This document shows positions 19,624-37,912 of a DNA stretch of 64,000 nucleotides, in pieces. Source of the DNA: Sulfurimonas sp. (GTDB lineage: Bacteria; Campylobacterota; Campylobacteria; Campylobacterales; Sulfurimonadaceae); contig JAQTZE010000001.1 in the NCBI GenBank assembly GCA_028687935.1, forward strand, positions 124,001 to 188,000, in the 5' to 3' direction. A program made the translations under genes and the position numbers. Positions within the stretch are counted from its first letter, which is position 1, and every line of letters starts with the position of its first letter. The notes under the pieces are model-generated. The model had not been told where the DNA came from, did no database searches, and worked only from the letters and a program-made list of their open reading frames with translations.

Positions 19624-21246
19624 TTAGATGACACTCAAAACAAGTGCTTTCGCCTCTTCTTGGATACGCACGAGATGTTCAGGAGAGATGAAACTCTCTG
19701 CATATATTTTGTAGATATCTTCTGTTCCTGATGGGCGTGCTGCGAACCAGCCATTTTTGGTTGTGACTTTGAGTCCGCCGATAGCTGCACCGTTTCCGCT
19801 TGCGTTTGTATAAATGCCTTCTATCTCTTCACCTGCGAGTGTTTTGGATGTGATGTCGCTTGGTGAGAGTTTTTTGAGTTTGGCTTTTTGCTCTGCGTTT
19901 GCTACTGCGTCACTGCGTTCATAGTAAGAAACTCCAAACTCCGCTTCAAGCTCTCTGTAAATAACAGAAGGGTCTTTTTTGAGTCTCTCAGTAATCTCAA
20001 ACGCAAGAAGATTGAGAATAATGCCGTCTTTGTCGCTTGACCAAACGCTACCGTCTTTGCGCAAAAATGAAGCCCCCGCACTCTCTTCACCACCAAAACC
20101 GATAGTTCCATCGCATAAGCCATCTACAAACCATTTAAAGCCTACTGGAACTTCTACAAGAGGTTTACCGATAGAAGCAGCTACTCTGTCTATCATCGAA
20201 CTTGAAACAAGTGTTTTGCCGATTTTGAGATCTTTGCTCCAAAGAGGACGGTTTTGAAAAAGATACCAGATTGCTACTGAGAGGTAGTGGTTAGGATTCA
20301 TAAGACCCGTAGGCGTGACAATTCCATGACGATCAAAGTCAGGATCGTTTGCAAATGCGAGGTCAAATTTATCTTTGAGGCTTACAAGTGAAGCCATCGC
20401 AAAAGGAGAAGAGCAGTCCATACGCACTTTGCCATCATGATCACAAGACATAAAGCTAAAAGTAGGGTCAACTTTGTCATTAACTATGTCAAGATGCAGA
20501 CCGTAGATTTCGTTGATCTTTTTATAAACCTCGATACCTGAACCACCAAGTGGATCAACGCCTACTTTGAGTTTGCTTTGTTGGAGGAGTTTCATATCGA
20601 TAATACTATCAAGCGCTTTGACATACGGTGTGATAAAATCCATCTCTTGCGTTTTTGCAAGCGCTTCTTCTTCACTTACGCTTTTGACACCTTCGAGATT
20701 ATTTTTGATATATTCATTTGCTTTTGCTTCGATGACAGAAGTCGCATCCGTATCAGCAGGGCCGCCGTTTGATGGGTTGTATTTGAAACCGCCATCTTGA
20801 GGAGGATTATGAGATGGCGTAATAACAACTCCATCGCAAAGTTCTTTAGAGCTTTTGTTGGCTTCAATAACGCTAAAAGAGAGCACAGGTGTCGGGGTAT
20901 AGCCATCATTTGCAGCGATGATACACTCCACGCCATTTGCTATGAAAACTCTGAGCGCTGTGAGTTGCGCTGGTGTTGAGAGGGCGTGTGTATCTTTTGC
21001 GATTAAGAGCGCACCTTTGACCTCTTGCGTTTTGCGATAGTCACACAGTGCTTGCGCAATAGCCAAAATATGCGTTTCGTTGAAACTTTTTTTCAAAGAA
21101 GTCCCGCGGTGTCCAGAAGTCCCAAACACAACGCGCTCTTCAACTATATTTACATCAGGCTTATCATTATAGTAGGCTGCTATAAGCGCATCTACATTGA
21201 TCAAATCTTCTTTTTTTACTAATTTTCCTGCGTTTGGGTGTGCCAT
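19624..21246 (-). CDS. pgm: Phosphoglucomutase (alpha-D-glucose phosphate-specific)
   Basis: Interconverts glucose-1-P and glucose-6-P, joining glucan turnover to the ED pathway. 540 aa, with TSGHRGTSL near 45, the phosphoserine loop TPSHNPPQDGGFKYNPSNGG, the metal loop DPDFDRHG, GFGGEESAGASF and the phosphate loop RPSGTEDIYK. The last 17 codons are the site duplicated at 18494-18542. It is followed on the same strand, with the order reversed, by nothing; its upstream neighbour is glk 64 bases away. Confidence 0.95.
   Translation of the reverse strand: MAHPNAGKLVKKEDLINVDALIAAYYNDKPDVNIVEERVVFGTSGHRGTSLKKSFNETHILAIAQALCDYRKTQEVKGALLIAKDTHALSTPAQLTALRVFIANGVECIIAANDGYTPTPVLSFSVIEANKSSKELCDGVVITPSHNPPQDGGFKYNPSNGGPADTDATSVIEAKANEYIKNNLEGVKSVSEEEALAKTQEMDFITPYVKALDSIIDMKLLQQSKLKVGVDPLGGSGIEVYKKINEIYGLHLDIVNDKVDPTFSFMSCDHDGKVRMDCSSPFAMASLVSLKDKFDLAFANDPDFDRHGIVTPTGLMNPNHYLSVAIWYLFQNRPLWSKDLKIGKTLVSSSMIDRVAASIGKPLVEVPVGFKWFVDGLCDGTIGFGGEESAGASFLRKDGSVWSSDKDGIILNLLAFEITERLKKDPSVIYRELEAEFGVSYYERSDAVANAEQKAKLKKLSPSDITSKTLAGEEIEGIYTNASGNGAAIGGLKVTTKNGWFAARPSGTEDIYKIYAESFISPEHLVRIQEEAKALVLSVI
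19631..19679 (-). repeat. 3' end of pgm (proximal copy of the duplication)
   Basis: Matches 18494-18542; the first 35 bases are identical. This copy is joined to the rest of pgm and keeps the gene whole. Confidence 0.85.
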
Positions 21247-21309: not shown

Positions 21310-22293
21310 TTAAAATTTATCCATAGCAAAGTGTGCCGCACCCAAAAGTGCCGTCTCTGCGTTTAAAGATATTTTTACAGACATCTGTGCAAGCATCTCG
21401 TTAAATCTTCCTTTGGAAGTAAAACCGCGCATAAAGTGTTCTTCTTGCATCATCGGCAAGATTTTTGGAGCGATACCACCACCGATATAAACGCCACCGA
21501 GGGAGAGTGTTTTTAGGGCGAGATTTCCAGCTTCGGCACCGTATATCTCTGTGAAGAGTTCGAGTGTTTTGAGACAAAGTTCATCTTGATGTTCAAGTGC
21601 GCAGAGACTGATAAGTGCACTTTTATCTGCGTTTTTCTCTGCGTTTTGTATCATGAGCGGCTCAGGAACTTGCAACTCCTCATGCAAAAACACATACAAA
21701 GCAGCGATACCTGGGCCTGAGAGTATTCTCTCATAACTCACATGAGAGGGATGACGCTCACGAAGCCAGAGTAAAAGTCTGTCTTGCAGAGGCGAAGTCG
21801 GAGCGAAATCACTGTGTCCGCCTTCTGAGCCTAGCGGATGGTAATTTTCTCCATCATAAAAGAGCATTCCCTCGCCAAGACCTGTACCTGCGGCGATAAC
21901 TGCTTTATTTGCATCTCTGCGTTTTGCCTTTGGATTGAGTTCTAAAAAACTCTCCTGCGGCAGATAGAGCATTCCATACGCTGTTGCTTCAAGGTCGTTC
22001 ATCAGGCGTACATTTGGTGTGCCTAAACTTTTTTGCAAAGCCGAGGTGCTGATGTGCCATGGAAGATTGGTCGTCTTGCACTCGCCATCGATGATAGCTC
22101 CGGCAATCCCAAAACAGACTGCGTTTATGAGTGGCTTTGAACTATTTTCTAAAAACGCAGCGATGACCTCATCAAAACTCGTATAAGCCCCACTTGAAAA
22201 CTGCTGCTGCGTTTGTAGCTCAAGAGTATTCTCAACAACTCTATAGAGTGCAAGATTTGTTTTTGTGCCGCCGATATCACCTGCTAGTATCAT
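21310..22293 (-). CDS. glk: Glucokinase
   Basis: Phosphorylates glucose with ATP to give glucose-6-P. 327 aa from the ATG at 22293, chosen because GAGAGGA lies just upstream and the product starts MILAGDIGGTKTNLAL; an in-frame ATG at 22308 abuts the previous stop. Motifs: DIGGTKTNLA (phosphate 1), NLPWHIS, RLMNDLEATAYG, VIAAGTGLGEG, GSEGGHSDFAP and SLGGVYIGGGIAP. It is the hexokinase-like bacterial Glk family. It can recover free glucose released by the neighbouring glucan hydrolases. Confidence 0.94.
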   Translation of the reverse strand: MILAGDIGGTKTNLALYRVVENTLELQTQQQFSSGAYTSFDEVIAAFLENSSKPLINAVCFGIAGAIIDGECKTTNLPWHISTSALQKSLGTPNVRLMNDLEATAYGMLYLPQESFLELNPKAKRRDANKAVIAAGTGLGEGMLFYDGENYHPLGSEGGHSDFAPTSPLQDRLLLWLRERHPSHVSYERILSGPGIAALYVFLHEELQVPEPLMIQNAEKNADKSALISLCALEHQDELCLKTLELFTEIYGAEAGNLALKTLSLGGVYIGGGIAPKILPMMQEEHFMRGFTSKGRFNEMLAQMSVKISLNAETALLGAAHFAMDKF

Positions 22294-22308
22294 AGAATCC
22301 TCTCTCAT

Positions 22309-25300
22309 TTAGCTCTCTTGTGTTCTCAAAAGATGTACAAAGGCATCGACAAAATTTTTGTCTGTCTCTTTTGGAGAGAGTTTATAAAAGCTCTCCCATG
22401 CCTGCGCTTTTTGATCATCATAGTTATCGTTACTATGTTCTTTATTCCATGCAATTTTGACTGCATGACCAATAAGAACATCCAAGACAATATCACTCTT
22501 TATATAAAGTTCTGGACTTTGTCTAAATATTTTGACAAGTGTTTTGATAAGTTCGATATTGAGCTGACGATAATCAGGCGCTTCGATACTTTGTAAAAGT
22601 GTATCGATATGCAACTCAAAACTTCTCTCTCCAGGGGTAAATTCAGAAGTACTTTCTGAACTTATACGGTTTTGTAGGCTGTATTTATCTCCAACGACCA
22701 GTGCTGTACACTGCTGGAGTAGATGCCAAGTGTCTTTATAAAAGCATTGTGTAAGTCCGCTGATCATACCACTTTCTTCTCTCCATAACGCCCAGTTTTC
22801 ATTTTCTACATCATCTGATAGAAGATAGTATGATGTAATATCATGAAAGTCTTTAAGACCTGAAACATTAAGATTTTCTACTTCTGAGAGTTTTTGAACC
22901 TCTTTGCTATAGGATTGTAGTATCAAACGCAGTCGATTGTAAATCTCATGCGGAGCGAGTGTGAGCAGTATTTCATACGCATCTCCGATAGCTATCTTTT
23001 TTTCTCTGATAATCTGACCAACAAGCAACTGCACAAAGTACCAAGTACGGAGTGTTAATATGTTTGTAAATAACTCTGGTTCACTCCGTATGAGGTGACC
23101 AAGATGCAGAATGATCTCTTGTGTGAGGATGCCCTCAGCAATATTATTGCCGCAAAATTCTTTGATAGTGTTGAGAATAAAGGCGTTATCATGAGGCTTT
23201 GAGAAGGTGGCTTTTTCACTATAGGCTCGTCCAACTGCAAGGCGTTTTTGTGAGATGATAATATCAAGAAGGATATCCTCAAGACGCTCATCAAACTTTT
23301 GGCTTATCTCTGCGATATGACGTGCAGTAGCCCAGTCATGACATACAGATGCCATCTCATAATATTGCTGTGCGAGCTCAAAGAGCGGTAGAGAATCCCC
23401 GTCTATCTGGATTTCAAAATTTCTTCCATGGCGTTTGCATAAAATTCCAAGAGCATGTGCAGTCTCTGTACGATTTTGCTTGCTAAGAAGGATATCGACT
23501 AGAAAATCATCTTCACTTGTATCAAACTTTTGAAGTCGTTGCGCACTCATAGGCTCAGAACTCTCTTGTGTGTTTGGTGCTCCACAAAGTATCTGCTTGA
23601 GTGCATGAAGTTCGATTTCTTGCGGCTTATACTCTCCTAAAAAATCTATACGCTCATAATCGGAACCTGCTAGAAGTTGTTCTAAGTGACCTGTTTTTAT
23701 ATCCATGCTAGAAATGTTTCTCTCTTGTAGCTCATGTAAAAGCTCAAGGATACTCTCTTTTGTATCACTGCGAAGCATATCTTCACGTACTAAAAAAGGA
23801 AGGATAGGTTGTCCTGGTTGATCCCAATGTTTTATCAAAAAATTGATCGAAGCACGAAAATGATCTCTGAGGAGGATATTGTCATAGGAAAAGTAAAAAC
23901 CTTGTGGATTGAAATAATAAGGAAGAAATACACTCTTTTGACCATCAAGGAGATGTAAACGTGCGCTTGTTATTGTACGGGTAATACTTAGAGGTCTTCC
24001 ACTGAGTGAGAGTTTTTTGTTCACTCCAAGCATGGTATGTATTTTTGAGAGTTCTGAGGCATGCATCACGCGTATAGGTTTGACACTCTCAAGTGTCTGA
24101 CTCTGTATGCCAAGGCTGAGGAGTCTCTCTGCCACATCTTCGTTTGCTGCGAGAATACTGATCATAGGATAAACGCTGCGTTTATGTCCTATGCGTTTAT
24201 GTCTTTGTAGGGGATCGATATCACTCTTGTCCAAAAGACCTTGCATTATCATCTCACAGAGTATATAGAGACTTTGCGCCCAAACCAGAGGAATATTTTC
24301 ATTTGGGATGCGTTTTTGTGAATGCGGCTCTGCTTTTTCAGCTTCTATAGACTCTTTTGGGACGATATAAAGCTCAGGCAAGAGCCTGATGCCATCCTCT
24401 TCGACAAAAAGTGGTTCAAGTTTTTCTTTATATTTTTGTATCTCATCTTGATCTTCACGCATCAGCGCATCAAGAAGTAGATAGGTAAAGAAAAGCGGCC
24501 ACTGGGATTCTATATTTTCAAATTCACGAAGTTCGGATGGCTCATAATGTAGACGCGATTCATCTTCGAGCATACTTTGATGCCCATCGAGTAAAAAGCG
24601 CTTACATCCGTAGCGTCCAGCAAGTTTTTTGAGTATTTTTTTACGTGTACGCCCTACAAGCTCTTCATCTTCTACCGCATAGGCAGGATAACCGATGATA
24701 CTCAAAAGTGCAGCATCTGTCTCTTTGGAGTTAGACTCTCTTGGAAGCAGACCTTGCAGGGTAAAACGTGAACGGGCTATATCATTAGATACAACATGGA
24801 TAACGGCTTCATTGCCTGCGACGTTGCCAAAAAGATTGAAGCCACTGATAGCTTCGAGTGCGGCTTTTGCCATACCTACGGAGCTACAATTGATTTCCGT
24901 CGTTCCGTGATTTTTTTTATTACCGCGCTCCCAGATACCGTAGTCAGGTGTACAATAGGTACGACTGATATAGTGGACAAGATTTTGCACAAAGTTGACT
25001 TCATCCATCGTATAGATGATTTTAAGTCCTGAGGCACTCATCTGTACGAGCATCAAAAGATAGAGTGAAGTGGCATCAAGCTGCAAATGTCCCCACGCAT
25101 CATCGCCGACAACAGCGAGACCGGTAGTCGTTCCATATTTAGCATGAAGCGCATCGATAGGATTGTTGCTTTTTTTATAAGCTTCGAGCTTATCTGCTTG
25201 GCGCATCATTGCGTTTAAGAGCCCGCGCATAAGCTTGACCACACTTTGTGAGAGGAGATGTGTGCGGTAGTGCTCGGGATAAAACTTCGAGTATGAAAGA

Positions 25301-25488
25301 CCAAGTCCCCAAACACTCATAATACTGTAGACATTGTCCCGTACCCAAGCATCCGTATAGTCACCATGTGCAGTAATAGCTGTACTTGCAGGCAAGAGCC
25401 CTGTTACAGGATCTTGACGCGAGAGAATAATCTTCTCAATAGATTGATATTGTTTCTCTAACAAAGGGCCGATCGTCTCTAAATTCAT
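22309..25488 (-). CDS. GH15 / phosphorylase-kinase regulatory-subunit-like protein
   Basis: A 1059-aa soluble protein. The N-terminal part matches the GH15-like domain of phosphorylase b kinase alpha/beta subunits: RQDPVTGLLPAST, DYTDAWVRDNVYSIMSVWGL near 43-62, DDAWGHLQLDATSLYLLML, ARYGCKRFLLDG-like text, and a later ESQWPLFFTYLLLDAL. The C-terminal 400 residues are helical with no motif I know. It is encoded 15 bases after an alpha-glucan phosphorylase and just before glk. In animals PhK regulates glycogen phosphorylase; whether this one is a glucanase or a phosphorylase partner cannot be told here. Confidence 0.85.
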   Translation of the reverse strand: MNLETIGPLLEKQYQSIEKIILSRQDPVTGLLPASTAITAHGDYTDAWVRDNVYSIMSVWGLGLSYSKFYPEHYRTHLLSQSVVKLMRGLLNAMMRQADKLEAYKKSNNPIDALHAKYGTTTGLAVVGDDAWGHLQLDATSLYLLMLVQMSASGLKIIYTMDEVNFVQNLVHYISRTYCTPDYGIWERGNKKNHGTTEINCSSVGMAKAALEAISGFNLFGNVAGNEAVIHVVSNDIARSRFTLQGLLPRESNSKETDAALLSIIGYPAYAVEDEELVGRTRKKILKKLAGRYGCKRFLLDGHQSMLEDESRLHYEPSELREFENIESQWPLFFTYLLLDALMREDQDEIQKYKEKLEPLFVEEDGIRLLPELYIVPKESIEAEKAEPHSQKRIPNENIPLVWAQSLYILCEMIMQGLLDKSDIDPLQRHKRIGHKRSVYPMISILAANEDVAERLLSLGIQSQTLESVKPIRVMHASELSKIHTMLGVNKKLSLSGRPLSITRTITSARLHLLDGQKSVFLPYYFNPQGFYFSYDNILLRDHFRASINFLIKHWDQPGQPILPFLVREDMLRSDTKESILELLHELQERNISSMDIKTGHLEQLLAGSDYERIDFLGEYKPQEIELHALKQILCGAPNTQESSEPMSAQRLQKFDTSEDDFLVDILLSKQNRTETAHALGILCKRHGRNFEIQIDGDSLPLFELAQQYYEMASVCHDWATARHIAEISQKFDERLEDILLDIIISQKRLAVGRAYSEKATFSKPHDNAFILNTIKEFCGNNIAEGILTQEIILHLGHLIRSEPELFTNILTLRTWYFVQLLVGQIIREKKIAIGDAYEILLTLAPHEIYNRLRLILQSYSKEVQKLSEVENLNVSGLKDFHDITSYYLLSDDVENENWALWREESGMISGLTQCFYKDTWHLLQQCTALVVGDKYSLQNRISSESTSEFTPGERSFELHIDTLLQSIEAPDYRQLNIELIKTLVKIFRQSPELYIKSDIVLDVLIGHAVKIAWNKEHSNDNYDDQKAQAWESFYKLSPKETDKNFVDAFVHLLRTQES

Positions 25489-25503: not shown

Positions 25504-27144
25504 CTATTTGTCATACATTTTGATGTAGTACTCATGAGCCATACGACCAGAGTCAAAGGCAGGAAGAATATCATTCATGGCACTCTTCATGATCTGTGTC
25601 CAGTTTTGTGGTCTGTTGTAGTACATAGGAATGATCTCGTTTTCGAGGATATCCATCATGTTTTTATTATCAAGCACATCTTGCTCTTCTGTAGAGAGAG
25701 TGCTGCTTGCAGAAGGGATAGTAAAAGAGTTACAACTATGTTTTGCAAATTCTGGATGCCAGCCGTCATTGGTTGAGAAGTGGACAGAACCGTTCATACT
25801 CGCACTCATACCGCTTGTTCCACTTGCTTCACGCGATATTCTCGGTGTATTGAGCCATACATCACTTCCATATTTGAGTGTACGGGAGAGTTCAAGCTCA
25901 TAGCCTATAAGCACAGCCATATTTTTGACTTTATGACTGATATGGATAAGTTCATTGAATGTATTGATTGCGTTTGTATCAAATGGATAGGGTTTTCCAG
26001 CCCAGATAATTTGCACAGGGTATTTTGTATTTTCAAGCATTTTTACAAAACGTTCAAAATCTTTTTTGATAAGCCCTGGACGTTTGTACTCCGCAAAACG
26101 GCGTGCCCACACAAGGGTAAGAACATCAGGATTGAACATTTTACCTGTTTGATCTGCGACTTCATCAAACAAAAGACGTTTAAGATGTTTTTTACGGGCT
26201 GTTAGGGCATAGTCTTCATGGTCATCAAGTGCAGTACGCATTCCTTTGTCCATCCAAAAGCGTCTATTTTGAGCGTTGGTGATATAAGTGATCTCCGAAC
26301 GACCTTCACAATCTTTCCACATACGATTTGCGACTTCACCATGAAATTGCGACACTGCGTTTGTTATCTTTGAAGCACGCAGTGCACCGACAGTGAGGTT
26401 GAAAGTATCATCTTTCATTAGTGTAATCTTGCGTACTGTCTCTAAATCAAGTCCGTCAAAAAAGCCAAAAGAGTGTAAGAGTCCAATATTATGGGTTTCA
26501 TTCCCCGCATCTTCAGGTGTATGTGTTGTAAAGACTACGTGGCGTTTGACCTCTTCCATATCCTTGAGTTTGTTATACATCTCATAGACCAAAGGCAGCG
26601 CATGTCCTTCGTTCATATGGTAGATATCGATCTTTTGTTTTAGCTTCTCAAGTACACGCATTCCGCCGATACCCAAAACAATCTCCTGCGAGATACGAGT
26701 CTCTTCATTGGAGTCATAAAGTTTATGTGTGATGGTGCGTGAGAGAAAATCATTTTCAGGAATATCCGTAGTCAGTAAAAGCAGCGGAGCCGATCCAAAG
26801 ATATTTGGTGGGAGATAGAAGACTTTGATAGCGACATCTTTACCACGAATATTTACAGAAGTCAAAATTCCAAGATCATCAAGGAAATAGTAATGTTTAC
26901 GGATAAATTCTGCTTGAAGTGAACGATCTTCATGTCGTGTTTGATCATAATAGCCATAACTCCACAAGATACCGACACCTACAATATTTTGGCGAAGGTC
27001 AAAAGCACTGCGCATATGAGAGCCTGATAAAAAGCCTAAGCCACCTGAATATATCTTCAGAGCTTGGTGAATTGCAAACTCCATAGAGAAATAAGCAACG
27101 CTTTTTTTATATTTTGCATCGAATTCGTAATCGTGTAGTATCAT
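25504..27144 (-). CDS. glgP: Short-type alpha-glucan phosphorylase family protein, PLP Lys replaced by Ser
   Basis: A 546-aa member of the short alpha-glucan phosphorylase group. It has YFSMEFAIHQALKIYSGGLG, a middle TTHTPEDAGN, WARRFAEYKRP, and near the end KYGSDVWLNTPRISREASG then TSGMSASMNGS. In catalytic GT35 enzymes the residue after the Met is the Lys that binds pyridoxal phosphate. Here codon 25806-25804 is AGT, Ser447. Unless another Lys serves, the enzyme may not use PLP phosphorolysis and may be a GT-like variant. It is the first gene of the leftward set (with GH15-like protein and glk), read from the 27145-27373 region. Confidence 0.85.
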   Translation of the reverse strand: MILHDYEFDAKYKKSVAYFSMEFAIHQALKIYSGGLGFLSGSHMRSAFDLRQNIVGVGILWSYGYYDQTRHEDRSLQAEFIRKHYYFLDDLGILTSVNIRGKDVAIKVFYLPPNIFGSAPLLLLTTDIPENDFLSRTITHKLYDSNEETRISQEIVLGIGGMRVLEKLKQKIDIYHMNEGHALPLVYEMYNKLKDMEEVKRHVVFTTHTPEDAGNETHNIGLLHSFGFFDGLDLETVRKITLMKDDTFNLTVGALRASKITNAVSQFHGEVANRMWKDCEGRSEITYITNAQNRRFWMDKGMRTALDDHEDYALTARKKHLKRLLFDEVADQTGKMFNPDVLTLVWARRFAEYKRPGLIKKDFERFVKMLENTKYPVQIIWAGKPYPFDTNAINTFNELIHISHKVKNMAVLIGYELELSRTLKYGSDVWLNTPRISREASGTSGMSASMNGSVHFSTNDGWHPEFAKHSCNSFTIPSASSTLSTEEQDVLDNKNMMDILENEIIPMYYNRPQNWTQIMKSAMNDILPAFDSGRMAHEYYIKMYDK

Positions 27145-27373: not shown

Positions 27374-29881
27374 ATGAAAGCAGTAGTGATGGCAGGCGGG
27401 TTTGGTACAAGAATACAACCACTGACAAACTCTCGTCCAAAACCGATGTTGCCGATCATCAATAGACCGATGATGCAACATACGATGATGAATCTCAAAG
27501 ATTTAGGAATTACAGAATTTATAGTTCTGCTCTACTTTAAACCTGAGATTATTCAAGACTACTTTAAAGACGGAAGTGACTTCGGAATAAAGATTACTTA
27601 TGTTGTTCCTGATGATGATTATGGTACTGCTGGGGCAGTAAAACTGGCACAAGAGCTTATTGGAGATGAAAACTTCATCATCATCAGTGGTGACTTGGTA
27701 ACAGATTTTGATTTCCAAAAAATATTTGACTATCATAAAGAGAAAAAATCAAAACTCACGATTACCCTTACTTCAGTAGATAATCCTTTAGAATTTGGTG
27801 TGGTCATCGCAAATGAAGATGGAAAAATCGAAAAATTCTTAGAAAAGCCGAGCTGGGGTGAGGTCTTTAGTGATACGATCAATACAGGTATCTATATTAT
27901 CGAACCTGAAATACTCAACTATATTCCAAAACATGAAAACTTTGACTTTGCAAAAGATCTCTTTCCGCGTTTGATGCGTGAGGGTATTGAGCTTATGGCA
28001 GGTCACGCTGAGGGTTACTGGCGAGATGTAGGAAATCCAGAGAGTTATCGTGATGTTTATGATGATTTGCTTAGTGGAAAAGTAAACTTCAAGATGCCTG
28101 GTATAAAAACTCTCTTTCCTGATGGCGTTTTATATAGTGATGCAGCCTATACACTCGATAAAAGTATCGAGATTATTGGAACTGTCGTGCTTGGGAAAAA
28201 TATTATGCTTGAAGCAGGTGTCAAGCTTAACAATGTCGTCCTTGGGGATAACGTATATATAGGAGCTGATTGTAAAATCCGTAACTCTGTTATGTGGGAA
28301 AACGTATCTGTAGGAAGAAACGCAATGCTTGATGGCTGTGTTATTTGTAACGATACTGTCATCGGGAAAAACTTCACAGTCAAAGCGGGATTGATTTTGG
28401 CAGAAGGGTGCGAAATAGGGCAGCTTGTCAATGTTGAAAAAGATGTGACGATTTGGTCAAATAAAGTCATTGAAGATGCTGCTATCATCAGTAACAGTCT
28501 TATTCTAGGAAGCAAATACAAAAACTCTATCTTTGAAAATGGGATGGTTGTGGGACACTCAAATGTTGAACTCTCCTGTGAAATGGCAACAAAACTTGCA
28601 GAAGCTTTTGGTGCCCAGTTACCAGTAGGTTCTACGGTTCTTATTTCCCGTGATTATCATAAAAATTCGCGAATGCTCAAGCGTGCATTTTTAGGTGGTC
28701 TACTCTCAGCGGGTATCAACGTCATAGATTATAAAGATATTCCTTCAGCAGTACTTCGTTGTAGCCTCTCTTTCAATGAACACTATACTGCGGGTGTACA
28801 TTTTCGCCAAAAGATTGATGATCCGACAAGTACAGTGGTGACTTTTTATAACAATGAAGCACTTCGCATAAATACAGATATCTCTAAAAAAGTGGAGAAA
28901 GCTTTTTTCAAAGAGAGCTTTAGACGCGTGGATTATTCAAAGATAGGTCAGATATTTGAGTCAGACCATATTAAAGAATATGAAACATATAAAGATGGGA
29001 TGAAACAGCAACTCGAATCACATATGTTCAAGTGTGTGGATTGCCGTATAGCTGTGGATATGTTGCATGGAATGGCTTCTGAAGTCTTTCCTGATATTCT
29101 CAATGAACTGGGAGTTGAGAACATTATGTTTAATGCCTATCAGGATGAAAATGCTCTTGCAAACATCAATCAGCTCATCAAGCAGTCTCACCATGACATG
29201 AGCGCCGTTGTGAAGGCACTTAATTTAAACGCAGGATTCCTTCTCTATCCTTATGGACAGCGTCTTGATATTATGTGTGATCAGGGCGAGGTGCTTGGAA
29301 AACAGACTGCACTGTATGTAGTGCTGACACTCTTAAATATGGAAGCAAAGTCTTTGGAGGTGAAAAAGCGTGTTTTCCTTCCTACTTGGGCTGCGGATAT
29401 TGTCTATTTTGATTCTTTAGATATCGAACGCGGACAGTATTTTAACTTTACGATCAAACAGATGAAAAAATATGATTTGGTTGCAACGGGTGAGGGGAAC
29501 TTTGCGTTTACAGAGTTCGCGACACACAGAGATTCTATGTATGCTACATTAAAAATACTAGAGATGGTTCTAAAATTTGATGTGAAGCTCTCAGCTATTA
29601 TCAAATCTTTGCCGAGTTTTCATTACACTACGACGCAGGTCAAATGTACACAGGCGATGAAGGGTAAAATGATGCGTATGTTCCTTGAAGATGCCAAAGG
29701 AAAAGAGGCTTCTACTCTTGATGGAGTGAAAATATGGCTGGATGAAAATGACTGGATACTGATGATTCCTGATCAATATGATGATGCACTCAATCTTTAT
29801 ATTCAAGCTGCGACAGATGTAAAAGGCGAAGAGATATTAGCGACTTATAGTGCGAAGATCGAAGCATGGTCGAAAGCATAA
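27374..29881 (+). CDS. Sugar nucleotidyltransferase fused to a degenerate phosphohexomutase
   Basis: 835 aa in three parts. Residues 1-230 are a nucleotidyltransferase with VVMAGGFGTRIQPLTNSRPK and SGDLVTDF. Residues 250-385 are left-handed beta-helix repeats. The rest resembles a phosphomannomutase/phosphoglucomutase. The mutase lacks the Ser-His-Asn-Pro loop (about 473-485 reads AGVHFRQKIDDP) and the DGDxDR metal loop (about 621-632 reads GFLLYPYGQRLD), so it is probably not catalytic. Annotated relatives are called mannose-1-P guanylyltransferases. Here, with no glgC nearby, it might make the glucosyl donor for GlgA; that is inference. Confidence 0.85.
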   Translation: MKAVVMAGGFGTRIQPLTNSRPKPMLPIINRPMMQHTMMNLKDLGITEFIVLLYFKPEIIQDYFKDGSDFGIKITYVVPDDDYGTAGAVKLAQELIGDENFIIISGDLVTDFDFQKIFDYHKEKKSKLTITLTSVDNPLEFGVVIANEDGKIEKFLEKPSWGEVFSDTINTGIYIIEPEILNYIPKHENFDFAKDLFPRLMREGIELMAGHAEGYWRDVGNPESYRDVYDDLLSGKVNFKMPGIKTLFPDGVLYSDAAYTLDKSIEIIGTVVLGKNIMLEAGVKLNNVVLGDNVYIGADCKIRNSVMWENVSVGRNAMLDGCVICNDTVIGKNFTVKAGLILAEGCEIGQLVNVEKDVTIWSNKVIEDAAIISNSLILGSKYKNSIFENGMVVGHSNVELSCEMATKLAEAFGAQLPVGSTVLISRDYHKNSRMLKRAFLGGLLSAGINVIDYKDIPSAVLRCSLSFNEHYTAGVHFRQKIDDPTSTVVTFYNNEALRINTDISKKVEKAFFKESFRRVDYSKIGQIFESDHIKEYETYKDGMKQQLESHMFKCVDCRIAVDMLHGMASEVFPDILNELGVENIMFNAYQDENALANINQLIKQSHHDMSAVVKALNLNAGFLLYPYGQRLDIMCDQGEVLGKQTALYVVLTLLNMEAKSLEVKKRVFLPTWAADIVYFDSLDIERGQYFNFTIKQMKKYDLVATGEGNFAFTEFATHRDSMYATLKILEMVLKFDVKLSAIIKSLPSFHYTTTQVKCTQAMKGKMMRMFLEDAKGKEASTLDGVKIWLDENDWILMIPDQYDDALNLYIQAATDVKGEEILATYSAKIEAWSKA

Positions 29882-29883
29882 AT

Positions 29884-31914
29884 ATGAAAACATCACTCAA
29901 CCTCTGTTTCTTTTGGCATATGCACCAACCAGACTACAGAGGTAGTGACGGGGTGATGAGTATGCCTTGGGTCTTTTTGCATGCGATAAAAGACTACTAT
30001 GAGATGCCTTGGCTTCTGAGCCGCTATAAGGGTCTCAAAGCGACCTTCAATATTACCTCTCCTCTTATAGAACAGCTCAACCTCTATGCAGATCCGCTGA
30101 AAACTGACTACTTTTTAGCGCTTTGGGAGATGCACCCATCCAAGCTTGATAGCGTACAAAAAGAGCGCCTTATCAAGACCTGTAAATCAACGCAGTATGA
30201 AACTATGGTAAAACCCATAGATACTTTTCGTATCTTATATGAGCAAGAGACTCTGAGTGATGAGGAACTTATAGACTTTGAAGTTGCGTTTATGCTTGCA
30301 TGGTGTGGGAACTATCTTCGTCAAGAAAATGCACTTATAAAAGAACTTTTCGCAAAAGAAAAGGGGTATACACAAAAGGACAAGAGTGACTTACTTCTCT
30401 CTTTGACTGCGTTTGTCCAGACTATCTTGCCTTTTTATGCGCGTTTACAAAAAGAAGGGGTGATTTCACTCTCGACGACACCCTACAACCATCCGATACT
30501 CCCTTTGCTTTTAGATATGCAAAATGCCAAAAGAGCAAATGAACATACAACTCTGCCTCAAACGCCTCTTTCACTTAGAGATGATGCGATCGAGCAAGTA
30601 TCACGAGCTATAGACTTGTATGAAGAGACATTTTTGCAAAAACCTACAGGATTTTGGCCTGCAGAAGGTGCAGTTGACGCGGCTAGTGTTGAGATATATA
30701 AAGAGCATGGACTCTCATGGATAGCGACGGATGAAGCTATTTTGTTCCGTTCACTTGGAGATGATAATCGCTCAAAACTTTACAAAGCCTATGATTACAA
30801 TGGTATGACGATGGGCTTTCGTGACCATGGTTTGAGTGATCTTATTGGTTTTACCTATAGATTTAAATCAGGTGCTGAGGCAAGTGAACATTTTATGGCA
30901 TCACTTGAACCCATAGCAAAAACGCAGGAAGATGCAACAGTTTTTGTCATTCTTGATGGAGAGAATGCCTGGGAATTTTTTCATAACAATGCCTATGACT
31001 TTTTTACAGCGCTTTATGAGCGTTTCTCAAAGAGTACTTGGTGTAAGACAGTGACGATGGATGAAGTCTCTCAGTTGCCAAACAAGGGAATTTTGCCTGA
31101 ACTAGCTCCAGGAAGCTGGATACACGGGAACTTTGATACTTGGTCAGGACACAGTGAAAAAAATCGTGCTTGGGAACTTATCTATCAGACAAAACGCGAT
31201 GTGGGACATCATATTGAGAGAGTCTCTGAAGATGTTGCAAAAGAGATACGCTTTCACTTCTTAGCTTCAGAGTGCAGTGACTGGTTTTGGTGGTATGGTG
31301 ATGACCATGTGACAGAGTTCGCTCTGGAATTTGATGCACTATTTCGTGAACATCTTATCAAGATTTTTGAGCTTATGGGGATGCAAGCTCCTGCTGACTT
31401 ATATATGCCTATTATCTCACATAAAAGTACAGTCTCTTTTTTACTTAAACCACAGCTTTCTATCTCTCCACTTATTGATGGGAAAAACAGCTCCTTTTTT
31501 GAGTGGCTTGGCAGTGGAAGTATTGATGAGAGTAAGATATTCTCAACGATGGACAAAGTCCGTGGCCCTATAGAAAAGATTTACTATGGGCATGATGACA
31601 AGGCGATTTACCTTGCGTTTGAAGGCGATGTAGCTGCTTTGGCTATGTCCAACTTGCACATACAAATCATCACAGAAGAGACGGGTGAGCTATTGCATTT
31701 TAAGATGAATGAAGGGTACAATCAAGAAGGAGTCGAACTAGTTGTGGATGAACGTATAGAAGTATCACTTGCACGTTGGCACTTTAAAGAGTATGGTAAG
31801 GTTCACCTGCGTTTTGAGATTGTAAAGGGAACGGAGATTATCCAAACGATGCCAGGATATGGAGCGCTTTATATAGATTTAGATGAGAGTTATGCCTCAA
31901 ACTGGTTTGTGTAA
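29884..31914 (+). CDS. GH57 glycoside hydrolase (amylopullulanase-like)
   Basis: 676 aa from the ATG at 29884, two bases after the preceding stop; an in-frame ATG at 29866 overlaps that gene. Family GH57 marks: FFWHMHQPDYRG at the start, TPYNHPILPLL, the nucleophile region TGFWPAEGAVD near 258, and ILDGENAWEFF near 356 with the likely acid/base Asp, then TWSGHSEKNRAW. A C-terminal beta-rich part follows (after about 500). Such enzymes cut or debranch alpha-glucans. It is intracellular (no signal peptide) and is the second gene of the rightward glycogen operon. Confidence 0.88.
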   Translation: MKTSLNLCFFWHMHQPDYRGSDGVMSMPWVFLHAIKDYYEMPWLLSRYKGLKATFNITSPLIEQLNLYADPLKTDYFLALWEMHPSKLDSVQKERLIKTCKSTQYETMVKPIDTFRILYEQETLSDEELIDFEVAFMLAWCGNYLRQENALIKELFAKEKGYTQKDKSDLLLSLTAFVQTILPFYARLQKEGVISLSTTPYNHPILPLLLDMQNAKRANEHTTLPQTPLSLRDDAIEQVSRAIDLYEETFLQKPTGFWPAEGAVDAASVEIYKEHGLSWIATDEAILFRSLGDDNRSKLYKAYDYNGMTMGFRDHGLSDLIGFTYRFKSGAEASEHFMASLEPIAKTQEDATVFVILDGENAWEFFHNNAYDFFTALYERFSKSTWCKTVTMDEVSQLPNKGILPELAPGSWIHGNFDTWSGHSEKNRAWELIYQTKRDVGHHIERVSEDVAKEIRFHFLASECSDWFWWYGDDHVTEFALEFDALFREHLIKIFELMGMQAPADLYMPIISHKSTVSFLLKPQLSISPLIDGKNSSFFEWLGSGSIDESKIFSTMDKVRGPIEKIYYGHDDKAIYLAFEGDVAALAMSNLHIQIITEETGELLHFKMNEGYNQEGVELVVDERIEVSLARWHFKEYGKVHLRFEIVKGTEIIQTMPGYGALYIDLDESYASNWFV

Positions 31915-31938
31915 TAAAAATATGAAATGGAAAATAAG

Positions 31939-33999
31939 ATGAGTAGACATACGACAAAATTACTTTTTGGGATTCACATGCATCAGCCGGTTGATAACTT
32001 CGACTGGGTGATAGAAAAGGGTGTAGAAATATGCTACGGCCCATTTTTTGAAGTGATGAGCAGATATCCTGACTTTCGCTTTGCCGTACACTGTAGCGGT
32101 TGGCTGATGGAGCAGATACAAGAAAAACATCCAAAACTCTATAAACAGATCACTACTCTTGCAAAAAAAGGGAGTATCGAGTTTTTTGGCGCAGGTTATT
32201 ATGAGCCGATACTTAGCGTTATCCCATCACAAGATAGAGTAGCGCAGATAGATCTTCTGAGTAAATCTATCAAAAAACAGTTCAAACAGACTCCTGAGGG
32301 ACTTTGGCTGACAGAGCGTGTTTGGGAATCTTCACTGATACCTGATTTGGCAAAAGCGGGTATCAAATATACGGTGATGGATGATTATCATTTTCAATGT
32401 GCGGGCTTTGATGAAGAAATTCTTGATGGTTACTACATGAGCGAAGAGGGCGGTGAAGAGATCGGACTCTTTCCTATCAGCAAAAAACTGCGTTACGCAC
32501 TTCCGTTTTTGAATGTCAATAGTGCCATAGAAGCAATCAAGTCCTATACAAGAGAAGAAAACTCTGCGGCTATTATCTTTGATGATGCAGAGAAGTTTGG
32601 AATGTGGCCAGGAACACATGAATGGGTCTATGAAAAAGGATGGTTAGAGCGTTTTGTGCAGGCTGTTTTGGCAGATGAGAGTATAGAGACTATGCACTAT
32701 GGCGAATACTTTGCAAAAGAGCGTACACGCGGTATCGCCTACTTGCCAAATGTTTCCTATTATGAGATGGGAGAGTGGAGTCTGCGCGCTGAAGATACAC
32801 TCAAGCTTGAAGCACTTAAAGATGAGATGGGCTTTGAACGGTATGAGAGAGAGGGTGTGAAGTTTCTCAAAGGCGGTATCTGGAAAAACTTCCTTGTCAA
32901 ATATGAAGAGAGTAACCGTATCCACAAACGCAGCCTTGAACTCTCAAAAGCAAGAGAGAGTGTCAAAAAGCCGAGTTTTGATAAAGCGCTCTATAAAGCA
33001 CAGACAAATGATTCCCTCTGGCATGGCGTTTTTGGCGGTTTGTATCTGCCAAATCTGCGCGATAGTGCTTATCGCTATATCATCGAAGCAGAAGATATCC
33101 GTTATGGTAAAAAAACAGTGCTTGAGTCGGATACAAATGAGCTTGATGGCTATCTCAAAGTAAAAGCCGTAACTCCAAAAAATATCTTCCGTTTTGACGC
33201 TGCTCATGGTGGTCAGATGGTAGAGTTTGATAGTCGTAAAGAGTGCTTTAACTGGCAAAATACATTGACGCGAAGAAAAGAGGCTTACCATCAGCGTCTG
33301 CTTGAAGAGCCAAAAGAGAGACCAAAGTCTGATGTTGTAATCGATGGCATCGATACGATTCACCATGCCGATGCGAAAATCGATGCGACACTCAAAGATG
33401 CGCTCATTTATGATTGGTATCTCAAAAACTCTTTTGTAGATCATATCAGTGATATGAATTTCAATGGAGATAATTTCCGTCATTGTAATTTTCGTGAATT
33501 TGGGGATTTTGCAAATCAGCCATTTGAATGTGCGCAAGAGAAAGAGAGTGTGACATTTACGCGCAATGGCGGACTCTATTTGCCACAAAAAGCAGCCACA
33601 TTCATGAGTAAAATATACACACCAAACGCAGAAGGCTTTGCGTTTGAAATAGCGCTTACAAGCGAGGCAAAAGGAAGTTTCAATTATGTTTTAGAACATA
33701 ACTTTCACTTTGGAGCGTATGAGAATATCAGTGTAAATGGTGAAATACTCAAAGAAGATGGCATGCTGAGTAGTGTAAAAACTCTTGAAATCTATGATGC
33801 TTTTTTGCAAAAAACTATCTCAATTACCCTTGACTCTGTGTGTGATATCTACTATTTTCAACTCAAAACGCTCTCCCAAAGTGAAGAGGGTTTTGATTTG
33901 AGTGTGCAGGGTGTGAGTTTTGCTATGGTTCTTCCTTTTGAAAAAACGCTGAGACTCAAAGGAACTTTGGAGGTGCTTGATGTCCCAAATCAGATATGA
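31939..33999 (+). CDS. GH57 glucanotransferase/alpha-amylase with DUF1925-DUF1926 domains
   Basis: 686 aa from the ATG at 31939, preceded by GGAAAATAAG; an ATG at 31927 is the alternative. FGIHMHQPVDNFDW opens the GH57 domain. GLWLTERVWESSL near 122 holds the catalytic Glu and FDDAEKFGMWPGTHEW near 214 the Asp. The middle and C-terminal parts (YLPNVSYYEMGEWSL, then beta-rich region) fit the DUF1925 and DUF1926 modules of 4-alpha-glucanotransferases. It would remodel chain length of the glucan. Its end overlaps the GalT-like gene by 20 bases. Two copies of the 8-mer CAAACGCA face each other inside it at 33623-33646. Confidence 0.88.
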   Translation: MSRHTTKLLFGIHMHQPVDNFDWVIEKGVEICYGPFFEVMSRYPDFRFAVHCSGWLMEQIQEKHPKLYKQITTLAKKGSIEFFGAGYYEPILSVIPSQDRVAQIDLLSKSIKKQFKQTPEGLWLTERVWESSLIPDLAKAGIKYTVMDDYHFQCAGFDEEILDGYYMSEEGGEEIGLFPISKKLRYALPFLNVNSAIEAIKSYTREENSAAIIFDDAEKFGMWPGTHEWVYEKGWLERFVQAVLADESIETMHYGEYFAKERTRGIAYLPNVSYYEMGEWSLRAEDTLKLEALKDEMGFERYEREGVKFLKGGIWKNFLVKYEESNRIHKRSLELSKARESVKKPSFDKALYKAQTNDSLWHGVFGGLYLPNLRDSAYRYIIEAEDIRYGKKTVLESDTNELDGYLKVKAVTPKNIFRFDAAHGGQMVEFDSRKECFNWQNTLTRRKEAYHQRLLEEPKERPKSDVVIDGIDTIHHADAKIDATLKDALIYDWYLKNSFVDHISDMNFNGDNFRHCNFREFGDFANQPFECAQEKESVTFTRNGGLYLPQKAATFMSKIYTPNAEGFAFEIALTSEAKGSFNYVLEHNFHFGAYENISVNGEILKEDGMLSSVKTLEIYDAFLQKTISITLDSVCDIYYFQLKTLSQSEEGFDLSVQGVSFAMVLPFEKTLRLKGTLEVLDVPNQI

Positions 34000-35008
34000 C
34001 CGTCTCCGTGATGCACATGTCATCATCGCACCGGAACGACTCCATAGACCTGATTGCAATATCCAAACAAGAGAGCGACGCGCAGAGAAAAAAGTGTGTC
34101 CTTTTTGTGAGGGCAACGAAGCGCTGACTCCGCCTGAGATCTTTGCTAAACGCAGCTTTAAAAGTTTTGCAAATGAGAAAGGGTGGCAGACGCGTGTTGT
34201 GCCAAATCTTTATAAGGCAGTACAGATAGAAGCAACGCATCAGCATCATTTCGGCTTGTTTGAGTATTGGGAGGGTTTTGGTGCGCATGAAATTATCATC
34301 GATACGCCAGAGCATCATACTTCTATGACCGAGTGGAGTGAAGAAAATGTTATCGCTTGGCTACAGACACTGCGTATACGTGTAGCTGATCTTAGACGCG
34401 ATCACCGCATAGCCTATCTCTCACTTTTCAAAAATGAGGGGGAGCTTGCAGGCTCAACACAAGAACATTCGCACACACAACTTATCGGTTTGCCGCTTAT
34501 CCCAAAAGCGCAAAAAGAAGAGTATCAAAATGCCTATGTACACTATAAACATCATAAACACTCGCTCTTTGAGGAACTTTTAGCTCATGAGGAAGAAGAA
34601 GCGGTACGTATGATTGAAAGTGAGGGTGATTTTAGTGCCTATTGTCCTTATGCAAGCGCCTATCCTTTTGAAGTTGTTCTTGGCTCTAAAAAGGCTTTGG
34701 GACAGATAGATACACTCAGTGATGCAAGTATAGAAGAGCTCGCACCTCTGCTTCTTCGTATACTCAAAAAACTCAAAGCGCAATTGGGTTCTCTTGATTT
34801 TAATCTTGCAATCTCGACTCCACCACTCCAAGAGAGCGGCTTTGAGAGTGATCTATTGGCATCGGTAGATGAGATATACAGATTTTCTATTCGGATTATG
34901 CCACGTATATATAAGTTTGGCGGCTTTGAACATAGCACGGGTGTCATCATTAACCCAGTCGCTCCGGAACTCGCAGCAAAATTACTCAGGGAGAGCAGTC
35001 ATGTCTAA
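33980..35008 (+). CDS. galT: GalT-family hexose-1-phosphate nucleotidylyltransferase
   Basis: 342 aa from ATG 33980, with GGAGG six bases upstream; the TTG at 33977 is less likely. It has zinc cysteines in KVCPFCEGNE near 36-45 and the active-site motif EHSHTQLIGLP, with His163-Ser164-His165 (E. coli GalT has His-Pro-His). No galE, galK or galM is nearby. The setting among glycogen genes suggests it may act on ADP- or UDP-glucose, as the plant ADP-glucose phosphorylase of this family does, rather than on galactose. It overlaps glgA by eight bases. Confidence 0.85.
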   Translation: MSQIRYDRLRDAHVIIAPERLHRPDCNIQTRERRAEKKVCPFCEGNEALTPPEIFAKRSFKSFANEKGWQTRVVPNLYKAVQIEATHQHHFGLFEYWEGFGAHEIIIDTPEHHTSMTEWSEENVIAWLQTLRIRVADLRRDHRIAYLSLFKNEGELAGSTQEHSHTQLIGLPLIPKAQKEEYQNAYVHYKHHKHSLFEELLAHEEEEAVRMIESEGDFSAYCPYASAYPFEVVLGSKKALGQIDTLSDASIEELAPLLLRILKKLKAQLGSLDFNLAISTPPLQESGFESDLLASVDEIYRFSIRIMPRIYKFGGFEHSTGVIINPVAPELAAKLLRESSHV

Positions 35009-36437
35009 ACTATCTTTACTTTTTGTCTCAAGTGAGGTCTATCCTTTCGCCAAAAGCGGAGGACTTGCCGATGTTGCACACGCACTGCCACGTGCCTTAA
35101 ACGCCGAGTATGCTGTAGAAGTTTGTATGCCTTTATACAGTTTTATAGATAGAAAAAAATATAAGATATCAAAACGTTCAGAGCATTTTGATATCACCAT
35201 AGCGAGTGAAGTACATTCCGTAGAATTATATGGATGCAGCTGTGAAGGAATCAATTACTGCTTTATATATTCGCCTCTTCTGTGTGAACGTGAATTTTTA
35301 TATGGTACACCTGAAGAGGGTTACGCAGATAATGCCTTGCGTTTTGGACTTTTTGCCTACGCAGTTGCAGCACTGCTTAAAGAAAAACAACACGAGATTG
35401 TCCATCTCAATGACTGGCAAAGTGCTCTTGTAACCCTTCTTATAAAAGAAGATATGAGTATTAAAACAAAGTCTCTTTTTACTATTCATAACCTTGCATA
35501 TCAAGGACTTTTCCCTCGACATGCACTTGAAGCGCTTGCAATAGATTCAAAACATTTTACTATGGATGCTCTTGAATTTTATCATCAGATGAGCTTTATG
35601 AAGGCGGGCATTGCTTATGCGGATGCTGTGACAACCGTGAGCAAACGCTATGCACAGGAGATTCTTACGCCAGAATTTGGCTGTGGTTTAGAGGGCTTTT
35701 TAAAACATCATGAAAAGAAACTTAGCGGCATAATTAATGGCGTAGACACGGAACATTTTTCACCTGCCAAAGATAAAATGCTTGCTCTTGCCTATGATGA
35801 TCTCAAGGGCAAAGCAGAAAACAAAAAAGCCTCTCTCAAAGAGATTGGTCTTCGTGGTATCAAAAAACCGCTTTTTATATTTATTGGGCGTTTTACTTGG
35901 CAAAAAGGGGTGGATCTGCTCCTTGAAGCACTTCCAAGTATGGCTGCGTTTGATTGTAATATTGCTATATTAGGTCATGGAGAGGCTGGATATACAACAA
36001 AGCTCGAAGAACTTGCAGCGCTGCATAAAAACATCCACCTCTCTTGTATCCATGATGAGTCGCTTTCCCATCAGATGTACGCGGCAGCTGATTTTTTACT
36101 GATGCCCTCACTCTTTGAACCGTGTGGGCTTAGCCAGATGATTGCAATGAATTATGGAGCTATGCCTCTTGTTCATCAAGTTGGCGGACTCAAAGATACG
36201 GTTGTAAGTTATAAAGATTTTGATGACAAAAAAGAAAAAGGCTTCGGTATAGCTTTTAAAAACCCAAACCTCACTGCGTTTTTGGGAGCTTTTGAAGAAG
36301 CTTTGGAACTTTTTGCAAATAAAAGAGAGTACAACAAAATATGTAGACACAATATGTTGTGCGATTTTTCATGGGATAAAAGCGCGCAGGCGTATAGCAA
36401 ACTCTATAAAAAAATCACGCATGGAGAAAAGTCATGA
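35001..36437 (+). CDS. glgA: Glycogen synthase, copy 1
   Basis: GT5 glucosyltransferase, 478 aa. The frame opens upstream at 34869, but the ATG at 35001 has AGGGAGAG upstream and gives the family start KLSLLFVSSEVYPFAKSGGL. Motifs: KSGGLADVAHALPRAL (donor site), IVHLNDWQSAL, FTIHNLAYQG, FIGRFTWQKG near 290, and PSLFEPCGLSQ with the catalytic Glu. It overlaps galT by eight bases and the second glgA by four (ATGA). The two glgA proteins differ clearly. Confidence 0.93.
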   Translation: MSKLSLLFVSSEVYPFAKSGGLADVAHALPRALNAEYAVEVCMPLYSFIDRKKYKISKRSEHFDITIASEVHSVELYGCSCEGINYCFIYSPLLCEREFLYGTPEEGYADNALRFGLFAYAVAALLKEKQHEIVHLNDWQSALVTLLIKEDMSIKTKSLFTIHNLAYQGLFPRHALEALAIDSKHFTMDALEFYHQMSFMKAGIAYADAVTTVSKRYAQEILTPEFGCGLEGFLKHHEKKLSGIINGVDTEHFSPAKDKMLALAYDDLKGKAENKKASLKEIGLRGIKKPLFIFIGRFTWQKGVDLLLEALPSMAAFDCNIAILGHGEAGYTTKLEELAALHKNIHLSCIHDESLSHQMYAAADFLLMPSLFEPCGLSQMIAMNYGAMPLVHQVGGLKDTVVSYKDFDDKKEKGFGIAFKNPNLTAFLGAFEEALELFANKREYNKICRHNMLCDFSWDKSAQAYSKLYKKITHGEKS

Positions 36438-37912
36438 AAAAACTCAACATTTTACTGGCAGCCTCAGAAGTCGTCCCTTTTGCCAAGAGCGGGGGACTTG
36501 CTGATGTTGCAGGTGCACTTCCAAAAGCTTTGCGTGCTCTGGGGCATGATGTACGAGTCGTGATGCCTCGTTACTATATCGTGGACAAAGAAAAATATGG
36601 TCTCAAACGCATGGAAGGCTCACTCGGTGTACCGATGGGCTCTAAAGGCGAACTCTGGGCAGCCGTCTATGAAGGTCTACTTCCAGGATCTGATGTACCA
36701 GTCTATTTTATAGAGTATGATGCTTATTTTGGCAGAAAAGGTCTCTATGATGAAGATGGAAAAGGATTTGTAGATAACGACAAACGCTTTATTTTCTTCT
36801 CAAAAGCTGTGATGCAGCTGGCCAAAAAGCTGCGTTTTCATCCTGATGTCATCCACGCAAATGATTGGCATACAGCATCTATACCAGTTCTGCTCAATAC
36901 GACGTATGCCTATGATGAGGATTTTAGAGATACGGGTTCGCTGTTGAGTATCCATAACCTTGAACATCAGGGTAAATTTCCAAAAAGTGCTATGGATGTT
37001 TTAAGTGTTGGCTGGGGACACTTCAATGCGGATGAGCTTGAAGAGTATGACGGCATCAATCTTCTCAAAGGCGGCATCGTTCATGCCGATGCTATAAACG
37101 CAGTGAGTAAGAAATATGCGCAGGAGATACGAACAAGTGAATTTGGCTGTGGACTTGAGAGACTTATCAATGAAAAATCTTATAAACTCTATGGTGTTTT
37201 AAACGGTGTGGATTATGAGGAGTGGTCACCTGCAGTAGACACACTTATAGCACAGAACTTTGATGTGGATGCAATGGAGGGTAAACTTGCTTGTAAAGAG
37301 GCACTGCAAAAACGCTTTAATCTTCCGCTTCGTAAAAATGTCCCGCTTATAGGACTTGTTGGAAGATTGGCTGAGCAAAAAGGTATTGGACTTTTGGCTG
37401 CGGCGATATGGAAATTGATGGAGCTTGATATTCAGATAGTGCTTCTAGGTGCTGGAGAGAAGTGGGCAGAGCGTTTCTTTAGCGAACTCGTTGCACGCTA
37501 TCCACAAAAGTTCGCCTGTTATATAGGATACCAAAATGACCTTGCACACCAGATAGAAGCGGCAAGCGATATGTTCTTGATGCCATCACTCTTTGAACCC
37601 TGTGGACTCAATCAGATATACAGTTTGCGTTATGGAACTATCCCAATCGTGCGCGCTACAGGCGGCTTAGATGATACGATAGAAAATTACGACAACGATC
37701 ATAAAAGCGGAACGGGCTTTAAATTTTATGATGCGACACCTGAGGCACTTATCGGTACAGTGAAATGGGCAGTAGATGTTTATAACCATGACAAAGAGGG
37801 CTTTGCGCAGCTCCAATCAAACGCAATGCAAAAGCGCTTTGACTGGAGTGAGGCTGCAAAAGGCTACGAAGAGATTTATGAGAAGATAATCGCTGGTCGC
37901 AGCAACACATAG
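36434..37912 (+). CDS. glgA: Glycogen synthase, copy 2
   Basis: A second GT5 synthase in tandem, 492 aa. It starts KKLNILLAASEVVPFAKSGG and has VIHANDWHTASIPV, LSIHNLEHQGKFP, LIGLVGRLAEQKG and PSLFEPCGLNQIYSLRYG. It is closer to the standard bacterial GlgA pattern (GADVxGALPKAL, YYxVDKxKYG-like text) than copy 1. The start ATGA overlaps the stop of copy 1, so the two are co-translated. Two synthases may differ in donor (ADP- or UDP-glucose) or chain length; this cannot be read from sequence. Confidence 0.93.
   Translation: MKKLNILLAASEVVPFAKSGGLADVAGALPKALRALGHDVRVVMPRYYIVDKEKYGLKRMEGSLGVPMGSKGELWAAVYEGLLPGSDVPVYFIEYDAYFGRKGLYDEDGKGFVDNDKRFIFFSKAVMQLAKKLRFHPDVIHANDWHTASIPVLLNTTYAYDEDFRDTGSLLSIHNLEHQGKFPKSAMDVLSVGWGHFNADELEEYDGINLLKGGIVHADAINAVSKKYAQEIRTSEFGCGLERLINEKSYKLYGVLNGVDYEEWSPAVDTLIAQNFDVDAMEGKLACKEALQKRFNLPLRKNVPLIGLVGRLAEQKGIGLLAAAIWKLMELDIQIVLLGAGEKWAERFFSELVARYPQKFACYIGYQNDLAHQIEAASDMFLMPSLFEPCGLNQIYSLRYGTIPIVRATGGLDDTIENYDNDHKSGTGFKFYDATPEALIGTVKWAVDVYNHDKEGFAQLQSNAMQKRFDWSEAAKGYEEIYEKIIAGRSNT

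Follow-up and report, generated by a model that had tools for sequence, protein, structure and literature searches.

A clade of proteins related to the GT35 alpha-glucan phosphorylases, occurring mainly in Sulfurimonas-like bacteria, lacks the lysine that holds pyridoxal phosphate (PLP) in this family, carries an invariant new lysine at position 424 and retains the residues of the glucose and phosphate sites. Because the rest of the active site is kept, these proteins probably still work, in a manner not yet described. Two reviews state that GT35 consists exclusively of phosphorylases and that these, uniquely among phosphorylases, require PLP (PMC4336185, PMC8950772). No description of a GT35 protein without its lysine was found in the titles and abstract openings of open-licence PMC papers. 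A conserved, functional-looking clade of this kind offers a natural test of the role of PLP in GT35 and also of the proposal that PLP replaced the nucleotide in an NDP-sugar-using ancestor (PMC11046441). Database records name genes of the clade glgP; despite these labels, glycogen breakdown in the 58 sampled glycogen-making genomes discussed below may follow a different chemistry.

The Ser-447 gene and its neighbourhood

The gene lies at positions 25504-27144, minus strand, of the window, the whole stretch of 64,000 nucleotides that was analysed, and is the first gene of a same-strand run that faces a divergent one. The features referred to here are the following.

19624..21246, minus: phosphoglucomutase-like gene, named from sequence
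21310..22308, minus: glucokinase-like gene, named from sequence
22309..25488, minus: GH15-like protein with a phosphorylase-kinase C-terminal domain (KPBB_C), from family search; 15 bp downstream of the phosphorylase relative
25504..27144, minus: GT35/TIGR02094 protein of the Thr/Ser-447 clade, 546 aa, from ORF, profile matches and alignment
25804..25806, minus: codon 447, AGT (Ser), at the PLP-lysine position, from sequence and alignment
25804..25830, minus: EASGTSGMS motif, residues 439-447, including Glu439, from sequence and alignment
25873..25875, minus: codon 424, AAA (Lys), candidate substitute anchor, from sequence and clade comparison
26083..26100, minus: Arg349 to Lys354 (RFAEYK), phosphate- and glucose-site residues, kept, from clade comparison
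27374..29881, plus: sugar nucleotidyltransferase-phosphomutase fusion, head of the divergent run, from family search
29866..33999, plus: two GH57 proteins, the second with 4-alpha-glucanotransferase C-terminal domains, from family search
33977..35008, plus: GalT-like protein (PF01087), from family search
34869..37912, plus: two glycogen synthases (GlgA, GT5), matches of 497.6 and 550.2 bits
37915..39861, plus: branching enzyme GlgB, named from sequence

The reading frame starts with ATG and has no internal stop, so that the preliminary description was right to call it sound, and its product scores 452.2 bits against TIGR02094 (alpha-glucan family phosphorylase; cut-off 191.7) and 50.4 against PF00343 (cut-off 27). 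Its motif reads REASGTSGMSASMNG; the serine reported in place of lysine after EASGTSGM is confirmed by the codon itself, and pairwise alignment to solved GT35 structures places Ser447 on the PLP lysine. In rabbit numbering this position is presumably Lys680. In potato Pho1, the equivalents are Lys762 for Ser447 and Glu754, a catalytic-site glutamate, for Glu439 (PMC11465516).

Misalignment as the cause of Ser447 is ruled out, since the spacing between Tyr415 and Glu439 is fixed at 24 residues, free of gaps, in all 122 aligned proteins. Chance and sequencing or frame error are likewise excluded by the intact ORF and by the lack of Lys447 in every one of the 110 short homologues with a readable motif. 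Recent decay of a single gene is rejected as well; the change is clade-wide, and dN of 0.04 versus dS of 1.03 against the nearest relative indicates purifying selection. The genome might also have carried a conventional phosphorylase besides this one, but a genome search found no further GT35 gene there; in profile searches of 397 genomes of the phylum, classical GlgP (TIGR02093) exceeded its cut-off in none.

The gene run points to a role in glycogen breakdown. As no match to GlgC above the cut-off was found in the genome, the best being the fusion gene itself at 144 of 424.9 bits, the fusion gene may supply NDP-glucose for glycogen synthesis. The tandem GlgA genes on the plus strand are clearly unlike each other around the EPCGL motif. 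Near the glycogen cluster, at 12283-16876 on the plus strand, are genes named from sequence as zwf, 6-phosphogluconolactonase, edd and eda, which represent the Entner-Doudoroff route.

Spread and descent of the clade

TIGR02094 proteins of Campylobacterota come in a short form of about 550 aa and a long form of about 710 aa, the former being without an N-terminal segment of some 100 residues. In 112 short ORFs pooled from the fetched loci, some of which represent the same organism from two collections, the motif is readable in 110 and residue 447 is Thr in 62, Ser in 45 and Ala in 3, the Schiff-base lysine of EAxGTxxMK being present in none; the remaining two are contig-end fragments. Long ORFs of the same phylum (n=16) have lysine in all 15 cases where the motif can be read. 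A scan of genome contigs yielded 45 relatives, titled as Campylobacterota or as unplaced or doubtfully labelled MAGs, and each of the 43 that span the motif has Thr, Ser or Ala.

Outside these sets, 30 plasmid records match with a query coverage of 80% or more. Eleven of the 13 fetched, from six phyla, have the lysine, and two have Thr447, those of Runella rosea (53.1% identity) and Pontibacter actiniarum (52.4%), both Cytophagales of the Bacteroidota. In the Runella rosea locus (L159), a gene of the pyridoxamine 5'-phosphate oxidase family follows the Thr-447 gene at 21651-22091, possibly by chance. Viral contigs gave 16 pattern matches, none of them confirmed, and phage records gave two matches at 30-32% identity.

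Removal of near-duplicates and short fragments leaves 94 short sequences, including that of the window. In the tree, the two Cytophagales copies group with the 22 short sequences sampled, in one clade with support of 100/100 on a very long stem. The clade without Lys447 is monophyletic and under purifying selection, and it appears best explained as an old side-branch of GT35. The protein is a real variant, as had been surmised, and its loss of Lys447 is both clade-wide and old. Because the stem, at 2.36 changes per site, is drawn towards a distant outgroup, the tree cannot tell a loss of PLP from an ancestry that never had it.

The active site and the gained lysine

Comparison of 96 distinct clade members with 26 Lys-type proteins reveals a catalytic site that is strictly conserved in both sets, with H208, N290, R348, R349, Y353, K354, K384, E439, G442, T443, S444 and N451 invariant throughout (H208, R348, K354, T443, S444 and N451, for example, are each found in 96 of the 96 clade members). 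The glucose contacts listed for potato Pho1, Asn561, Tyr651, Arg647, Glu754, Ala755, Ser756 and Gly757 (PMC11465516), match N290, Y353, R349, E439, A440, S441 and G442 here. Six of the seven are kept in all 96 sequences and S441 in 94, the other two having Cys, and with this small exception the earlier statement that the other motifs are kept holds.

These invariant contacts bear on the possibility that the protein is a pseudoenzyme, a glycogen-binding or regulatory partner with no catalysis. The PLP lysine is gone in every clade member, as such a role would allow, yet the catalytic-site residues are unchanged in 96 of 96, 58 GlgA-bearing genomes have no GT35 other than the short form, and this form exchanges syntenic places with the Lys form. 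A pseudoenzyme is accordingly quite improbable, and the suggestion that the protein acts only as a binding partner is unlikely. The other suggestion of the preliminary description, that the protein may use another mechanism, is a plausible hypothesis.

Changes specific to the clade surround the cofactor site, with D/N414 replaced by G, A420 by S, L/V211 by E, V/I292 by Q and F346 by W, and with Glu at residue 416. The most conspicuous is Lys424, shared by all 96 clade members and found in none of the 26 Lys-447 proteins, where Val is the usual residue; a Klebsiella plasmid GlgP has Ile at the matching position. The pairing of Lys424 with a residue other than Lys at 447 holds in all 110 short ORFs with a readable motif, and the assignment of position 424 is secured by the fixed Tyr415-Glu439 spacing. 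By helix periodicity, 424 falls one turn past 420, which we take to correspond to rabbit Ala653, a residue that touches PLP. From this spacing and the PLP contacts of the rabbit enzyme, Lys424 is expected to line the PLP pocket. One lysine has gone from the site and another has arrived beside it in a single evolutionary event, with no independent repeats, since the clade has one origin. Lys424, missed in the preliminary description, is a concrete candidate for a nearby lysine that could hold PLP.

Given the strictly conserved catalytic site and the genomic role, the protein without Lys447 is probably active and catalyses glucosyl transfer in the breakdown of glycogen. Most likely it would cleave the ends of alpha-1,4-glucans with phosphate to give glucose 1-phosphate, which would then pass to the neighbouring phosphoglucomutase, with the catalytic phosphate group working without a tether at position 447. 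In the most specific form favoured, a lysine swap, PLP would occupy roughly the same pocket, either re-anchored on Lys424 or held non-covalently; phosphorolysis of this type is put forward tentatively as the best reading, at somewhat less than an even chance. Against the swap are its single origin and the further pocket changes (Ala to S420, D/N to G414, and E416), as these changes could reflect a complete absence of bound PLP. That the clade is a GT35 subfamily without any PLP, the sole GT35 of many Campylobacterota, working by direct phosphorolysis or with nucleotide-sugars in the emptied site, is a substantial possibility that falls only somewhat short of an even chance.

One version of such chemistry is a PLP-free phosphorylase with a front-face attack by Pi, a mechanism proposed for the retaining trehalose phosphorylases of GT4. 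Though a different family, GT4 would provide a model of phosphorolysis without PLP on a glycosyltransferase fold. Within the clade, the anion-site residues Arg349, Lys354 and Arg348 are kept, and E211, Q292 and E416 are new, invariant polar residues near the site in sequence. However, Arg348, equally invariant, is at a position that we take to contact the PLP phosphate in GT35, and a PLP-free phosphorylase would be without precedent inside this family. The same reviews do provide a precedent outside GT35 in the GT4 enzyme (PMC8950772, PMC4336185), and direct phosphorolysis of this kind is considered unlikely, although worth retaining.

Likeness to GT5 and the role in glycogen-making genomes

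Comparison with known systems places the clade in the same family as the Segatella copri enzyme (PDB 9l6i; TIGR02094, CAZy GT35), with which it shares the GT-B fold, the glucose and phosphate sites and the glycogen context, and from which it differs by the missing PLP lysine and by Lys424, Ser420, Gly414, Glu211, Gln292 and Trp346 instead of the usual residues. As the PLP lysine was looked for and is absent, the protein is best recorded as a TIGR02094 relative rather than as a PLP-dependent GT35 phosphorylase. An AlphaFold2 model of the ORF protein (45 sequences, pLDDT 87.6) matches 9l6i with Z 31.0 and rmsd 2.7 over 529 aligned residues, which shows the GT-B fold of solved GT35 enzymes in the model, and matches the ADP-bound GT5 synthases 6gne and 3cop with Z 29.2 and 29.1 (rmsd 2.9-3.2, 437-450 aligned). 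For a Lys-type control (15 sequences, pLDDT 77.7), 20yr (Z 45.1) and 9l6i (Z 38.9) lead the matches listed; a GT5 chain is absent among the 50 matches listed, which is not evidence of absence, and the length differs. Low confidence in the glycine loop was set aside as evidence, as it is common to the clade model and the control.

The clade and the GT5 GlgA proteins have the GT-B fold in common, and neither has a lysine at Glu+8; a Glu/Arg/Lys constellation is presumably common to them as well, whereas the clade retains the GT35 motifs. On a local glycogen-synthase profile, the clade has a median of 15.2 bits (94 proteins) versus 5.5 for the long forms (15) and 1.6 for others (11), and TIGR02095 (GT5) matches the ORF protein over most of its length at 32.3 bits, far below its cut-off of 328.45. 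Both shifts towards GT5, in fold match and in GlgA-profile score (about 10 bits), are modest and partly an effect of length.

These shifts are among the points in favor of an NDP-glucose enzyme with a nucleotide in the PLP site, acting as a glucan synthase or, in reverse, as an NDP-dependent glucan breaker. The PLP lysine, at Glu+8, is presumably at the site of the second Glu in the EX7E motif of many NDP-sugar enzymes. The profile scores of the clade exceed those of Lys-type proteins, and its model fits GT5 nearly as well as GT35. Set against this, the score differences are small, shorter length favors GT5, the GlgA cut-off is far off, the cluster already has two GlgA genes and Lys424 has no counterpart in either of these, which have Glu or Tyr there. 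In a proto-GT35 enzyme acting on NDP-sugars, PLP has been proposed to take the place of a nucleoside monophosphate (PMC11046441); on balance, an NDP-glucose enzyme is an unlikely but reasonable alternative to phosphorolysis.

Across the phylum, TIGR02094 is present in 75 of the 397 sampled genomes, with the short form only in 58, the long form only in 6, both in 10 and a long-form remnant in 1. GlgA exceeds its cut-off in 74, in 73 of them together with a GT35 gene, and in all 58 of the short-only genomes; G210 has GlgA without GT35, and G053 and G347 have GT35 without GlgA over the cut-off. The remnant, in locus L146 of G053, contains a stop. KPBB_C occurs in only 14 of the 397 genomes, all 14 within the 58 short-only ones, and a phosphorylase-kinase-like neighbour as an obligate partner is rejected on this count.

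Throughout the loci, the short form adjoins the same genes as in the window, together with pgi, pfk, GAPDH, PGK and ROK kinases, the last lying close to it in 11 loci (cluster C3). These kinases and the glucokinase-like gene of the window suggest that free glucose is made, as would follow if the enzyme catalysed a different reaction, for instance hydrolysis or disproportionation of glucans, but the cluster's GH57 proteins can account for free glucose and another reaction is very unlikely. Ahead of the nucleotidyltransferase fusion and GH57 genes, L150 and L151 have the long Lys form where other loci have the short one, which suggests a shared role. Since ten genomes keep both forms, which would be redundant if identical, the roles may also differ, a point against the favoured reading. 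Where the two occur together in L129, L134, L135 and L142, the order is long form, pgm, pgi, short form and fusion gene.
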